DNA of 64,000 nt from NCBI RefSeq assembly GCF_003932495.1, contig NZ_QZMT01000002.1:62001-126000 (forward strand), read 5' to 3'. Positions within the stretch are counted from its first letter, which is position 1; every line of letters starts with the position of its first letter. The DNA comes from Guyparkeria sp. SCN-R1. GTDB taxonomy: Bacteria; Pseudomonadota; Gammaproteobacteria; Halothiobacillales; Halothiobacillaceae. Shown here in pieces: positions 31,047 to 37,319 of the stretch. A model generated the notes under the pieces. It was not told the origin of the DNA. It was given only the letters and a program-made list of their open reading frames with translations, and made no database searches. The position numbers were made by a program, and so were the translations under genes.

Positions 31047-31325
31047 GATATTTCGCGCGCCGGTTGCGCGAGTAGGTATGAAATAGGCGCCGTGCCCGGC
31101 GCACGAGGGTATTTTCTTGCTTGTCCAAGAAAACACCCGAAAAGAAGGACACCCCGGCGCCTTGGCCCTTCGGGCCTGATCGCCGCGGATGAGATCCGCG
31201 TCGATCAGCCTCGCAAACGAGCGATTGCGGACGGGTCGGTTCGACGCGACGTCGTGTCGCGGCGAACCTCGGGCTCGCGTCCATGCGAGCCCGACCCTGC
31301 AATCCCTCGTTCGCGAGGCAAGGCA
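31047..31325 (+). repeat. Structured intergenic repeat, copy A
   Basis: The most complete copy in plus orientation. After a leading segment (CGCGCGCCGGTTGCGCGAG) and GCCGTGCCCGGCGC come hairpin H1 (31107-31138, loop GCTTGTCC), a constant 17-mer GAAAAGAAGGACACCCC (31139-31155), H2 (31164-31176), H3 (31176-31208), H4 (31238-31268) and H5 (31271-31292). H4 and H5 are enclosed by a long-range stem pairing 31208-31229 with 31298-31319. Copy C matches it over almost its full length, apart from paired changes in stems. It lies between the DUF305 gene and the TolA-C-like gene. Confidence 0.88.
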
Positions 31326-31538
31326 CAAGGGGGACCAGCGCTTCGTTTCACCTCACGACAATTGTCGAAAATGACACACTCTTTGCAGAAGAGTGCACGA
31401 GATCACGAGTGCCAGGCAATCGACAAAAGAACGACAAAACGGCGGAAAGAGGGTTAATAACGAGATAAAATGTTAAGCACCCTCCTGCCCCATTAAGCAA
31501 ATGTTTTCGCAACAAAAAGCCACGGAAGAGCTTCCACT

Positions 31539-32189
31539 ATGCACCTCAGATTACTCACCGCTTACATCACCGTCGCGCTCGTAACCGTAATCAACAATCC
31601 AGCCCTGGCGACAGAGGCTATGGATACGCGAAATGCAATTAAGGCCTGCAAACAACTCGAGAAGTTCGCATCCCGCACGGCGAACGACCGATTCGTAAAG
31701 GAAATCCCACTATCGGATGCTTTGCTCGAAGTAGCGGGCGATCCGACGCGCGAGGCAATCGTGCTTGAGGCGTACACGAAAGGCCCCAGGGAAATCGGCA
31801 ATGGGGGACGAGGCTTTGGCGAACATGTATTCCGTCGATGCTACGCCGGCGCCAACTCACCAGACGACGGTCGAACAACACAGGAGATCCTTGCTGAAAA
31901 CAAGAAGATGAAACACCAAGCCCTTTCCCACTGGGCCATGGCCGTGCAGAAAAAACTACGCGACAACTGGAAACGTCCCGATGACGCCTCCGTCGGCTGG
32001 ACATGCACTGCGACGATATGGATGAAGGAGTCCGGTGAAGTCAAAACAATCAAGATCGAACGGTGCGATGGAACGAGCTCCTTCAAGGATTCAGTCCGTT
32101 CCGCTATCGAGTCCTCGTCTCCACTCCCCCGCCCTGCAATTAGCTCCATCTGGCAGGAAAAGATCCGCCTCAACTTTAAACCGGAATAG
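31539..32189 (+). CDS. Periplasmic TolA/TonB C-terminal-domain protein
   Basis: A 216-residue protein with a cleavable signal peptide (about 1-24, ending PALA). Its last 85 residues resemble domain III of TolA or the TonB C-terminal domain: a helix (AMAVQKKLRDNWKRP), paired cysteines around WTCTATIWM and IERCDGT, the ASPLP-type motif SSPLPRP and the terminal LNFKPE. The membrane anchor and long helical arm of TolA are missing. GC content and codon use are clearly lower than in core genes, suggesting recent acquisition. It sits between repeat copies A and E. Role unknown; an envelope or bacteriocin/phage-related partner of Tol is a guess. Confidence 0.75.
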   Translation: MHLRLLTAYITVALVTVINNPALATEAMDTRNAIKACKQLEKFASRTANDRFVKEIPLSDALLEVAGDPTREAIVLEAYTKGPREIGNGGRGFGEHVFRRCYAGANSPDDGRTTQEILAENKKMKHQALSHWAMAVQKKLRDNWKRPDDASVGWTCTATIWMKESGEVKTIKIERCDGTSSFKDSVRSAIESSSPLPRPAISSIWQEKIRLNFKPE

Positions 32190-32278
32190 GTGGCAAGCCA
32201 GCCATACGGTGTCCCACTTGAATTGAGAGCGACAGCACTTCGTACTTGCCGGGAGACGTATCGGAGAAACCCCATTGC

Positions 32279-32350
32279 ATCCTGTCTCGGGGCCGGTGGA
32301 TGGCTCAGGGCCGGGGCGACATGGACGGCGCTCCGAGGCGCGCCTGGCAT
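32279..32350 (-). repeat. Structured intergenic repeat, fragment E
   Basis: Read on the minus strand, GCCTCGGAGCG-CGTCCATG-CGC followed by CCGGCC and GAGACA matches the H5-to-3'-end part of copy B (35262-35320) with several substitutions. The rest of the element is missing. Confidence 0.65.
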
Positions 32351-32419
32351 GGCGTCACCCCGCAAACCACCGAGCGACAACGGCGTGCGAAACCAAAAAC
32401 CACGCCTGACGAGAGACGA

Positions 32420-33551: not shown

Positions 33552-33851
33552 TCAGTGAGCCGCCTCGTCGAACGTCAGCGGCTCGATACCGGCCAGGTCA
33601 ATCTGCGACCGGGCGACGGCCAGATCGTGCATGTCCTGCATGGCAAGCCAGCTCTCCGGCGAACGCCCCAGCGCGCGCGAAAGCCGCAACGCCATCTCCG
33701 GACTGACAGCGCTCTGTCCACGCAGCAACCGCGCCACCGTCGACGGCGCAACCTGCATGCGAGCCGCCAGATGGCGTGCACTCATCCCGAACGGCTCGAG
33801 ATAGACGTCGCGGATGAACTCGCCTGGGTGAGGGGGGTTGTGCATGGTCAT
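33552..33851 (-). CDS. higA: HigA-type antitoxin
   Basis: A 99-residue XRE-family helix-turn-helix protein of the HigA group. It begins with HPGEFIRDVYLEPFGMS, followed by the HTH (ARHLAARMQVAPSTVARLLRG) and PEMALRLSRALGRSPESWL. It would bind and neutralise HigB and repress the operon. Its ATG overlaps the higB stop by one base (TGATG), so translation is coupled. Confidence 0.92.
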   Translation of the reverse strand: MTMHNPPHPGEFIRDVYLEPFGMSARHLAARMQVAPSTVARLLRGQSAVSPEMALRLSRALGRSPESWLAMQDMHDLAVARSQIDLAGIEPLTFDEAAH

Positions 33852-34129
33852 CAGTGATAATCCTCGTAGTCGAGAACGTGCGCATCGCCGTCGCGGAATT
33901 CAAACGTCAGCCGCCAGTTGCCACTGACCCGGATCGACCAGCGATTGGCCTGTTCCCCGCGCAATGCATGCAGACGAAAGCCCGGCACGTCCATGTCGTC
34001 GATCGTCGTGGCGGTCTCCAGTGCGGCAAGCTGCATCCTCAAGCGCCCGGCATGCGCCGGTTGAATCCCGGCGACACTGCCCGACGTGTGGAACCGCCGG
34101 AGTCCCTTGTGGCGGAATGATCGAATCAT
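33851..34129 (-). CDS. higB: HigB-type toxin, RelE superfamily
   Basis: A 92-residue RelE/ParE-fold protein of the HigB family, a ribosome-dependent mRNA endonuclease. Typical features are the start MIRSFRHKGLRRF, the segment PGFRLHALRG, NRWSIRVSGNWRLTFEF and the end DYEDYH. The toxin gene precedes the antitoxin gene, the characteristic reversed order of hig loci. Both genes keep full length, so the module looks intact. Confidence 0.92.
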   Translation of the reverse strand: MIRSFRHKGLRRFHTSGSVAGIQPAHAGRLRMQLAALETATTIDDMDVPGFRLHALRGEQANRWSIRVSGNWRLTFEFRDGDAHVLDYEDYH

Positions 34130-34956: not shown

Positions 34957-34973
34957 ACCGCCCCCGCCCTCCT

Positions 34974-34996
34974 GTAGGTCGGACTTCAGTCCGACG
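34974..34996 (+). repeat. Single REP-like hairpin
   Basis: GTAGGTCGGACTTCAGTCCGACG carries the GTAGG head and a palindromic stem (TCGGAC/GTCCGA) like the REP units elsewhere in the window, but with a different stem sequence and no inverted partner nearby. Confidence 0.6.
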
Positions 34997-35046
34997 TCGG
35001 CCACCGGCCGACTACTCCGAACAATCGAATCCACGCTGGAGGATCG

Positions 35047-35320
35047 TTTCGCACGCCTGTTTGCGCGGGGCGGCCATTAATTAACGCCCTGCCTGGCGCG
35101 CGAGCCCCTTTTCTTGCTTGTCCAAGAAAAGGGGCGAAAAGAAGGACACCCCACGGCTCGGCCCTTCGGGCCTTCGAGGCCGGACGTTTGTCCGACCTCG
35201 AAGCCTCACGACCACCGGCTGTCTCGGGGCCGGCTCGACGCGACGTCGTGTCGCGGCGAGCCTCGGAGCGACATCCATGTCGCTCCGACCCCGGCCACCC
35301 GCCGGCCGTGAGACAAGCCG
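35047..35320 (+). repeat. Structured intergenic repeat, copy B
   Basis: Plus orientation, directly after the GGDEF-like gene. H1 at 35104-35135 has a perfect GCCCC/GGGGC lower stem under the constant TTTTCTT/AAGAAAA upper stem. The constant 17-mer is at 35136-35152, H2 at 35160-35172, H3 at 35172-35203, H4 at 35232-35262 and H5 at 35265-35286. H3, H5 and the lower stems differ strongly in sequence from copies A and C yet still pair. The closing long-range stem (CTCACG...CGTGAG) is present but weaker. Confidence 0.88.
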
Positions 35321-35323
35321 TCA

Positions 35324-35333
35324 GGGGGGGGGG
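35324..35333. repeat. G10 homopolymer tract
   Basis: Ten consecutive G residues directly follow repeat copy B in intergenic DNA. It could be prone to slippage during replication. It lies outside any recognised gene. Confidence 0.7.
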
Positions 35334-35442
35334 CGACTTTCGTTAAGCGCCGTGCCGGTTGCAGAGCGTTCATCCCACCGGAAACCGAAGGCATGTCCGC
35401 CGCTGAAGTCCGTGAATTATGTGGATCGAAGGGTGAAGCCCC

Positions 35443-35706
35443 TTACGCCTTGCCTCGCGAGCGGGGAATCGCAGGGTCGGGCTTGCATGGACGCAAGCCC
35501 GAGGTTCGCCGCGACACGACGTCGCGTCGAACCGACCCGCCCGCGATTGCCCGTTCGCGAGGCTGATCGCGCAGCGATCAGGCCCGCAGGGCCAAGGCGT
35601 CGGGGTGTCCTTCTTTTCGTCGGTTTTCTTGGACAAGCAAGAAAACCGACTCGCGCGCCGGGCACGGCAGCATGATCGTGCAAGCTCGCTCAACCGGCGC
35701 GTGAAA
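35443..35706 (-). repeat. Structured intergenic repeat, copy C
   Basis: Minus orientation, facing copy B about 120 bases away. Near-identical to copy A across the whole element. H1 is at 35619-35650 with a GTCGG/CCGAC lower stem, the 17-mer complement at 35602-35618, H2 at 35581-35593, a shortened H3 at 35563-35581, H4 at 35503-35533 and H5 at 35479-35500 (GGGCTTGC/GCAAGCCC). The long-range stem pairs 35452-35473 with 35543-35563. Copies B and C together make a roughly 660-bp imperfect inverted arrangement. Confidence 0.88.
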
Positions 35707-36077: not shown

Positions 36078-36257
36078 AAAACACCCTTTTTATTGGTTAC
36101 AACTCATCCGTGATGCATTCCTTTGCAACGAAGCACCCACAAACCTTGTGAGTGTCAAAGCATGTGGCTACTCGACCACGCCCTCAACGTATCACGCCCG
36201 CCAGATATAGACAAAGAGCGCGATTTTTATTTGTCCGAACGAAAACCCTACTCTTCT
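36078..36257. other. Intergenic stretch upstream of the peptide gene
   Basis: AT-richer sequence that should hold the promoter of the minus-strand peptide gene at 35955-36077. I could not single out a convincing -35/-10 pair. No coding frame is supported. Confidence 0.4.
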
Positions 36258-36426
36258 TCGCGTCCGGGGAATTACAGGGTCTGGCTCGCATGGAGGCGAA
36301 CCGACCCGTTCGCGAGGCTGACTTCGCAGCGATCAGGCCCGCAGGGTCAACAGGCAGTCGGGAGTCCTTCTTCCCGTCGGGCACGGCGGCGAGTCGGTAG
36401 CCGCTCCCGCAACTGGCGCGTGAAAC
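36258..36426 (-). repeat. Structured intergenic repeat, decayed copy D
   Basis: Minus orientation. The leading segment (TTTCACGCGCCAGTTGCGGGAG), GCCGTGCCCG, part of the 17-mer region (GAAGAAGGACTCCC), H2, a damaged H3 and TCGGTTCG are still recognisable. Compared with copy C, the H1 hairpin (about 37 bases) and the interval from the H4 interior to the H5 loop are precisely missing. These look like hairpin deletions. Confidence 0.78.
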
Positions 36427-36518: not shown

Positions 36519-37241
36519 TTAACGCTCCGCCAGATAAGACTCACACAGAGAACTTATTCGCCCAGCCTGGGCCTGAATGTCTCCCACGGGGTCAAAATGA
36601 TGCTTGTGGGCCTTTAACTGCTGGGCAATGTCATCACGACTCTGCTTAAAAAGATCTCGGGCAAAATCGGGGACAAAGGAGTTGCTCATGCAACTTTCAA
36701 TATAGTTCATCTTGTCTACATGACTCTGAGTTGGGATGTTCTGACCCAACTCCACAGCGATCTTATCGATTTCCACCATAAAATCCGTCGAAAACTCCAA
36801 ACACAAAGTAAGGACGTCATCCTTAGGAGCTTCAATAGAAATGAGTCGCCCACGGTTATCAAATCTCTCCACATCACTTGCAACAAAGTATCGGCCGTCT
36901 GCCCAACCATCGATGATTTGCATGCCGTCATGGGTGACCGCATTTCGGCATTCCTTAAAAAAATGGAAGTGCCTAACATCGGCAAAGCGTGACCAAACGA
37001 GGGGCTCACCAGTTGCCGTTGCCAGAGAGTCTTTCAGAGATTGAAATGTATTAACGAGAGCATTGAATATGAAATTAACATCTTCCTGTCCACTGTTTGC
37101 TGGGCAAACCCCAGACAGAAAATTCTTGTGCGTCAAGGTGCATATATCCGCAACCTTCTGCAGAAAATACTCATACTCCTGCAACTTATTCTTAATAAAG
37201 CTGCCGACAACCATTTTATGGTGGGTCTTCTGCTCATCCAT
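36519..37241 (-). CDS. HEPN-like hypothetical protein
   Basis: A 240-residue, low-GC, predominantly helical cytoplasmic protein that I cannot place in a named family. It contains FKECRNAVTHDG, in which Arg99-Asn100...His104 fits the Rx4H motif (with a polar residue after Arg) of HEPN-domain ribonucleases. HEPN proteins serve in toxin-antitoxin, abortive-infection and RNA-processing systems, but no nucleotidyltransferase (MNT) partner is adjacent. The ATG at 37241 has a strong AAGGAG eight bases upstream; the earlier TTG start is unlikely. It lies immediately downstream of trpE on the same strand, with codon use unlike its neighbours, suggesting transfer. Confidence 0.72.
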   Translation of the reverse strand: MDEQKTHHKMVVGSFIKNKLQEYEYFLQKVADICTLTHKNFLSGVCPANSGQEDVNFIFNALVNTFQSLKDSLATATGEPLVWSRFADVRHFHFFKECRNAVTHDGMQIIDGWADGRYFVASDVERFDNRGRLISIEAPKDDVLTLCLEFSTDFMVEIDKIAVELGQNIPTQSHVDKMNYIESCMSNSFVPDFARDLFKQSRDDIAQQLKAHKHHFDPVGDIQAQAGRISSLCESYLAER

Positions 37242-37319
37242 GAAGCAGGCTCCTTCCAATAAGTCAGACTACGCCGAGGGAACACTGGGCACGAGCCTCC
37301 AGAGAAGGCATCAAGAAAG

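Follow-up and report, generated by a model that had tools for sequence, protein, structure and literature searches.

The window, by which we mean the whole 64-kb stretch of DNA that was analysed, carries three copies of a structured repeat, here called A, B and C, and the decayed remains of a fourth, D. Copy A (31051..31339, RNA on the minus strand) is a complete half of the type that we call T1, with all five helices in its fold and a match of 280 bits to the nhmmer T1 profile; comparison within the window places it in inverted orientation relative to 35439-35706. Copy B (35047..35328, minus strand; nhmmer 283 bits; RF01731 54.9 bits at 35225-35293) is a T2 half and copy C (35428..35706, plus strand; nhmmer 294 bits; RF01731 55.8 bits at 35450-35565) a T1 half, and the two together form one intact head-to-head element, their facing 5' ends separated by a spacer at 35329..35427, as delimited by the positions of the half-type profiles. 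Fragment D (36254..36426, plus strand) derives from a T1 half, with an nhmmer match of 54 bits at 36254-36379 and the end repeat at 36375-36426. The Rfam matches in the window are exactly three, all to RF01731, and correspond to A, B and C.

Directly downstream of rlmM, a T2 remnant lies at 32268..32357 (plus strand; nhmmer 39 bits), and a relative (L056, 7095-7752) carries an intact T1/T2 pair at the orthologous rlmM site. On these two grounds, we take A to be the surviving T1 half of an older rlmM element, with its lost partner now some 930 bp away and a TonB C-terminal-like gene (31539..32189, plus strand; Pfam TonB_2) in between; this gene is absent from the relatives' element and is probably a later insertion. 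Other features nearby include a HigB-like toxin and HTH antitoxin pair recognised by Pfam (33552-34129, minus strand), a GTAGGTCGGACTTCAGTCCGAC palindrome at 34973-34999, which is a GTAG-tagged REP-like unit between a GGDEF gene and copy B, and a 246-aa protein with zero Pfam matches (36519-37259) adjoining fragment D.

Structure of the repeat

The core of copy A (31201..31326, minus strand) is a three-way junction that scores 59.3 bits in cmscan, against a gathering cut-off of 43, as a member of the Rfam family RF01731, TwoAYGGAY. In sequence and fold, its long-range stem pairs a 5' arm at 31298..31319 with a 3' arm at 31208..31229, as counted along the minus-strand RNA, and encloses two hairpins on the same strand, H1 (31271..31292) and H2 (31238..31268). 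The first-pass annotation had proposed this very stem around two hairpins, named H5 and H4 there, and all of it is present in the sequence; the fold reaches further than the annotation had it, however, covering 31051-31339. Beyond the core, the half-element fold adds two extra hairpins (GAUCG..CGAUC and GGCCC..GGGCC) at 31164..31208, followed by a tail hairpin with a conserved UUGGACAAGCAA apex at 31107..31138 and a terminal hairpin with the element end (TTTCGCRCGCCGG / CCGGCGYGCGAAA) at 31051..31104, the last two read from fold together with sequence or sequence comparison and all on the minus strand. H1 presents the hexaloop AUGGAC (31279-31284), an ANGGAN loop of the type bound by CsrA, and H2 the loop ACGAC, a GGA-less form of the family's AGGAN loop. 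The annotation wrote the former as TCCAT; the loop is there, but as the RNA strand of both A and B is the minus strand, it properly reads AUGGAC or AUGGAU.

It had also suggested folding each copy separately, and considered that minimum-energy and consensus folds lacking a common junction would speak against the proposal. When folded, A and B on the minus strand reach minimum energies of -83.9 and -86.1 kcal/mol (z -8.4 and -5.1) and C on the plus strand -87.1 kcal/mol (z -8.5), zero shuffles being equally stable in each case, and the same three-way junction is common to all three; the RNAalifold consensus of 39 copies, drawn from nine genomes of the genus, recovers it as well. Copy C thus repeats the stem (35452-35473 with 35543-35563) and hairpins of A, and B, described earlier as a weaker version, indeed has the same arrangement, though it is the other half type with a long stem of its own. 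The remark that simple interspersed repeats seldom have such a junction stands: the repeats are interspersed but structured, and they sit within a larger composite element.

The evolution of the stems is that of a selected RNA structure. In the alignment of the 39 copies, standard pairs fill 98.2% of the 1599 pair cells, against 85.1% in shuffles, and compensatory, double-sided changes occur at 23 of the 41 pairs; they number 208, compared with 54 +/- 7 in shuffles, and the covariation score is 0.398 as opposed to 0.138 +/- 0.008. When the partner is shifted by one to three columns, pairing drops to 34-45%. Both the paired changes in H2 and the replacement of whole stems in H1, noticed by the first-pass annotation in the three window copies, are real, and covariation and the consensus fold support selection on the structure; the H1 stem is exchanged as a unit, with double-sided changes at seven of its nine pairs and not a single helix cell broken. 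A palindrome arising by chance or from coding constraint in GC-rich DNA could be imagined from the overlapping open frames on both strands, and yet stems that swap as units between copies are unlike coding constraint, the folding z-scores and the Rfam match point the same way, and the covariation across the 39 copies is so far beyond that of shuffles that the probability left to this explanation is negligible.

The structure is furthermore specific to one strand, minus for A and B and plus for C. In 67 of 69 half-elements, the strand carrying the motif folds into the more stable structure of the two, and after correction by dinucleotide shuffling this strand is favoured in 44 of 44 copies, by a mean of -11.2 kcal/mol; shared ancestry keeps the copies from counting as independent trials, yet the direction is the same throughout. 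On the motif strand, the stem cells hold 54 G-U against four A-C combinations, and the uniform preference together with the G-U excess points to selection on RNA.

Family membership and distribution

By score, the core is a member of a known family, as A, C and B all exceed the RF01731 gathering cut-off of 43 bits (59.3, 55.8 and 54.9 bits), and the family's criterion of two adjacent hairpins within a longer stem describes all three. AYGGAY-like loops are found in H1 of each; the ACGAC of their second loop, shared by the three, is unlike the family's GGA-type loops, and within our wider set GGA is kept in H2 of 42 of 68 copies and lacking in 26. In 2010, Weinberg et al. listed TwoAYGGAY as a probable RNA that is probably not cis-regulatory (PMC2864571), and a role in CsrA binding has already been proposed for it on the basis of motif matches (PMC4333381).

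In the genome, RF01731 matches 16 times, and a BLAST search with copy A gives 27 matches. Among 57 relatives, the family occurs in 19, with 2-44 copies each, and is missing from most of genus g4; across the class, it was found in 23 of 370 genomes and 21 of 273 genera. A member of another family (G035) has 28 copies, in which the modules follow in the same order but the stems differ; in some of these, such as L175 and L169, the composite is longer, as a second TTTTTGTCAACAGCAACAAAAA hairpin follows and the end is GTAACTACTCAGC. In other bacterial families, too, the junction is retained, and most copies have GGA in both of their loops; this loop conservation is biased by the covariance model with which those copies were found.

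An element of two unlike halves

TwoAYGGAY is catalogued as a stand-alone motif (clan CL00106). The element core has the same junction, two hairpins, GGA-type loops and strand but is one module of a half of approximately 280 nt, in which the three-way junction is joined by two further hairpins, by the tail hairpin with its UUGGACAAGCAA apex, and by a hairpin at the end that closes on TTTCGCRCGCC. Most halves are arranged head-to-head in pairs about 660 bp long, with a spacer of mostly 80-200 bp and inverted repeats at both ends (TTTCGCRCGCC / GGCGYGCGAAA). Types could be assigned, by inspection, to roughly two dozen pairs, and in these the halves are unlike: T1 stands with T2, T3 with T4, and in one case a T3-like half with T2. 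Halves of this kind also occur in genus g3, but joined tail-to-tail (e.g., L202 and L176 of G012); several contigs of that genome end inside an element, and its true copy number is therefore probably higher. The placement of the TwoAYGGAY core as a module of a five-helix half within a two-half interspersed element is new here: our literature search, which was incomplete in its coverage, returned no account of the family in a two-half element, of its orientation changes or of the extra modules, and an earlier description may exist.

One could suppose that the difference between the halves serves to let each of them fold by itself. We rejected this idea, as the minimum-energy folds of whole elements pair partly across the halves: in one transcript spanning both, 74-217 pairs form between them. 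Separate folding of the halves would thus take place at best during transcription, and pairing in a joint transcript could bury the loops. A further candidate part of the element, an insert of 260-270 bp seen in three T2 halves, turned out to be an unrelated repeat nested there; about 262 bp long and bounded by long inverted ends (AGGGAATCTCTGCACGAATCGATGGTGCCTCTG), it occupies the same point of a T2 half in three species (G000 C1 at ~312.7-313.0 kb, G002 C3 at ~257.9-258.1 kb and G009 C1 at ~607.0-607.3 kb).

Genomic sites and orientation

Neighbouring genes were called with a simple codon-usage gene finder, and the calls are rough; at the 21 sites where both neighbours were called, 17 elements lie between co-directional genes and two between convergent ones, a distribution that led us to reject a terminator of convergent genes. 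The closest stop codon is often 12-108 bp from the element. Such positions, and the great stability of the folds, would suit a 3'-UTR structure with a role in protecting or terminating transcripts, be it a stabiliser, an RNase III site or a terminator-like barrier, with GGA loops that serve some other protein or none. In the window sequence, however, no U-run follows the hairpins, and a role of this kind leaves unexplained both the invariant A.GGA with its free loop positions 2 and 6 and the three-way junction kept across families; we consider it quite improbable.

Two sites could be followed across species. Upstream of dapD, the pair is found at the same place in eight of the ten species of the genus checked, the T2 half being proximal to dapD in six and the order reversed in two (G001 and G005); of the others, G004 has no element and G007 retains only both its ends. 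Downstream of rlmM, the orientations are divided four to three among species, and the sites of G005, G007 and G008 are without an element. On a tree built from dapD and rlmM, in which some branches are weakly supported, these patterns require at least two orientation changes per site, although the differences may possibly come from independent insertions in opposite orientation rather than from the turning of one element. Between species at dapD, the halves are 85-86% identical, compared with 55% for the spacer and 45% for the 5' flank, and T1 copies group with those of the same locus in other genomes rather than with others of their own genome. The latter made us discard concerted evolution as the source of similarity among copies, and the conserved halves between drifting sequences, taken with the clustering, argue for upkeep by selection and not mainly by gene conversion.

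The same observations bear on the view that the element is a mobile repeat at the DNA level that resembles MITEs or REP/BIME sequences and has no host function, its hairpins and inverted ends acting only in its own transposition or inversion. Many dispersed copies with inverted TTTCGCRCGCC ends, a dapD site free of the element in one species and reduced to its ends in another, both orientations at the same loci, and the 28 similar copies in G035 are all as such a repeat would have them, and an original spread by transposition may well lie behind them. ERIC/RU, Correia and other bacterial MITEs are likewise intergenic, palindromic, present in multiple copies, structured if transcribed and bounded by inverted ends; the present element differs from them in its two unlike halves, each with a multi-branch fold on one strand, in its strong compensatory evolution and in having no known transposase. 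REP/BIME/REPIN sequences with RAYT resemble it in their inverted pairs of intergenic hairpin units, but those units are 20-40 bp long against approximately 280 nt here, and the element is unlinked to the REP-type transposases of the genome. Against mobility as the whole explanation, a comparison with the element-free dapD and rlmM sites revealed no recognisable target-site duplication, no transposase was seen in any copy, and the strand-specific G-U enrichment and the long conservation at one locus, beside a drifting spacer, point to selection on RNA. All considered, we hold a purely mobile nature to be rather unlikely, while still giving it real weight.

More specific routes of spread were rejected. 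The genome has three places with Y1_Tnp, the REP-type transposase, and none carries the element; they adjoin another repeat (AAAGGGGTCAGAAC), which disposes of a RAYT/REP origin. Zero matches in the plasmid or phage collection speak against recent spread by such vehicles. In G000, a Y1 (REP-type) transposase gene (L044, C2:7970-8649) has an internal exact direct duplication of 300 bp and is flanked by inverted AAAGGGGTCAGAACTATTTTCTGA repeats.

A proposed role as CsrA decoy

In the H1 loop, GGA is present in 68 of 69 copies and ANGGA in 67, and in the 39-copy alignment the closing C-G pair and the loop A, G, G and A are invariant while loop positions 2 and 6 vary. Just such ANGGAN hexaloops with variable N are high-affinity ligands of RsmE/CsrA, the repeat of CsrB is CAGGA(U/A/C)G, and CsrA dimers bridge sites 10-63 nt apart (PMC7652899). 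The distance between the H1 and H2 sites is 28 nt in 30 copies, the second site of the window copies being without GGA. The genome has one csrA; a search with the CsrB model gave no match, and the RsmZ (PrrB_RsmZ) model reached at best 18 bits against a cut-off of 44. With the invariant loop, the spacing, the earlier proposal and a csrA lacking a clear CsrB or RsmZ partner, we take CsrA binding as the most likely function, and we lean, by a little, towards a transcribed half that binds CsrA (RsmA), its copies titrating the protein or bringing it to a neighbouring mRNA.

Each half folds on a single strand into the three-way junction with its two GGA-type hairpins, a tail and an end hairpin, and with unlike halves placed head-to-head, one of them would be read in sense in either direction of transcription through the site. 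Under this proposal, the ANGGAN hexaloop of H1 and the CAGGANG loop of an intact H2, at their distance of 28 nt, would suffice for one CsrA dimer, and the dispersed copies in 3' UTRs and intergenic regions could act as decoys that titrate CsrA or as recruiters of CsrA to adjacent mRNA. Several observations weigh against a decoy. With ACGAC as their H2 loop, A, B and C each offer a single GGA loop; SELEX favours short stems (PMC7652899), and the H1 stem, at 8-9 bp, exceeds them in stability; the pairing predicted between the halves of a joint transcript counts against it as well; and as copies are missing from most g4 relatives, which belong to the same family, a Csr circuit can do without the element. 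Known decoys of the CsrB/RsmZ and McaS type likewise carry GGA in their hairpin loops (ANGGAN, CAGGAYG), spaced so that they can be bridged, but they are single sRNA genes, whereas the element is repeated at dispersed places near gene ends and each core has one or two sites. A bolder version, which we hold to be rather unlikely, would see in it a mobile and orientation-indifferent RNA element whose unlike halves ensure one CsrA-binding RNA downstream of the host gene, so that a dispersed, repeat-built CsrA sponge replaces the CsrB-type sRNA.

TwoAYGGAY has been a catalogue entry since 2010 without a proven function, and its placement in the element provides both an anatomy and a direct test. 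The element is conserved at orthologous loci, lies there in either orientation, and retains its CsrA-type loops while the stems are freely replaced. If the proposed role is true, an interspersed repeat would supply the decoys of a global regulator, which bears on why such repeats persist.
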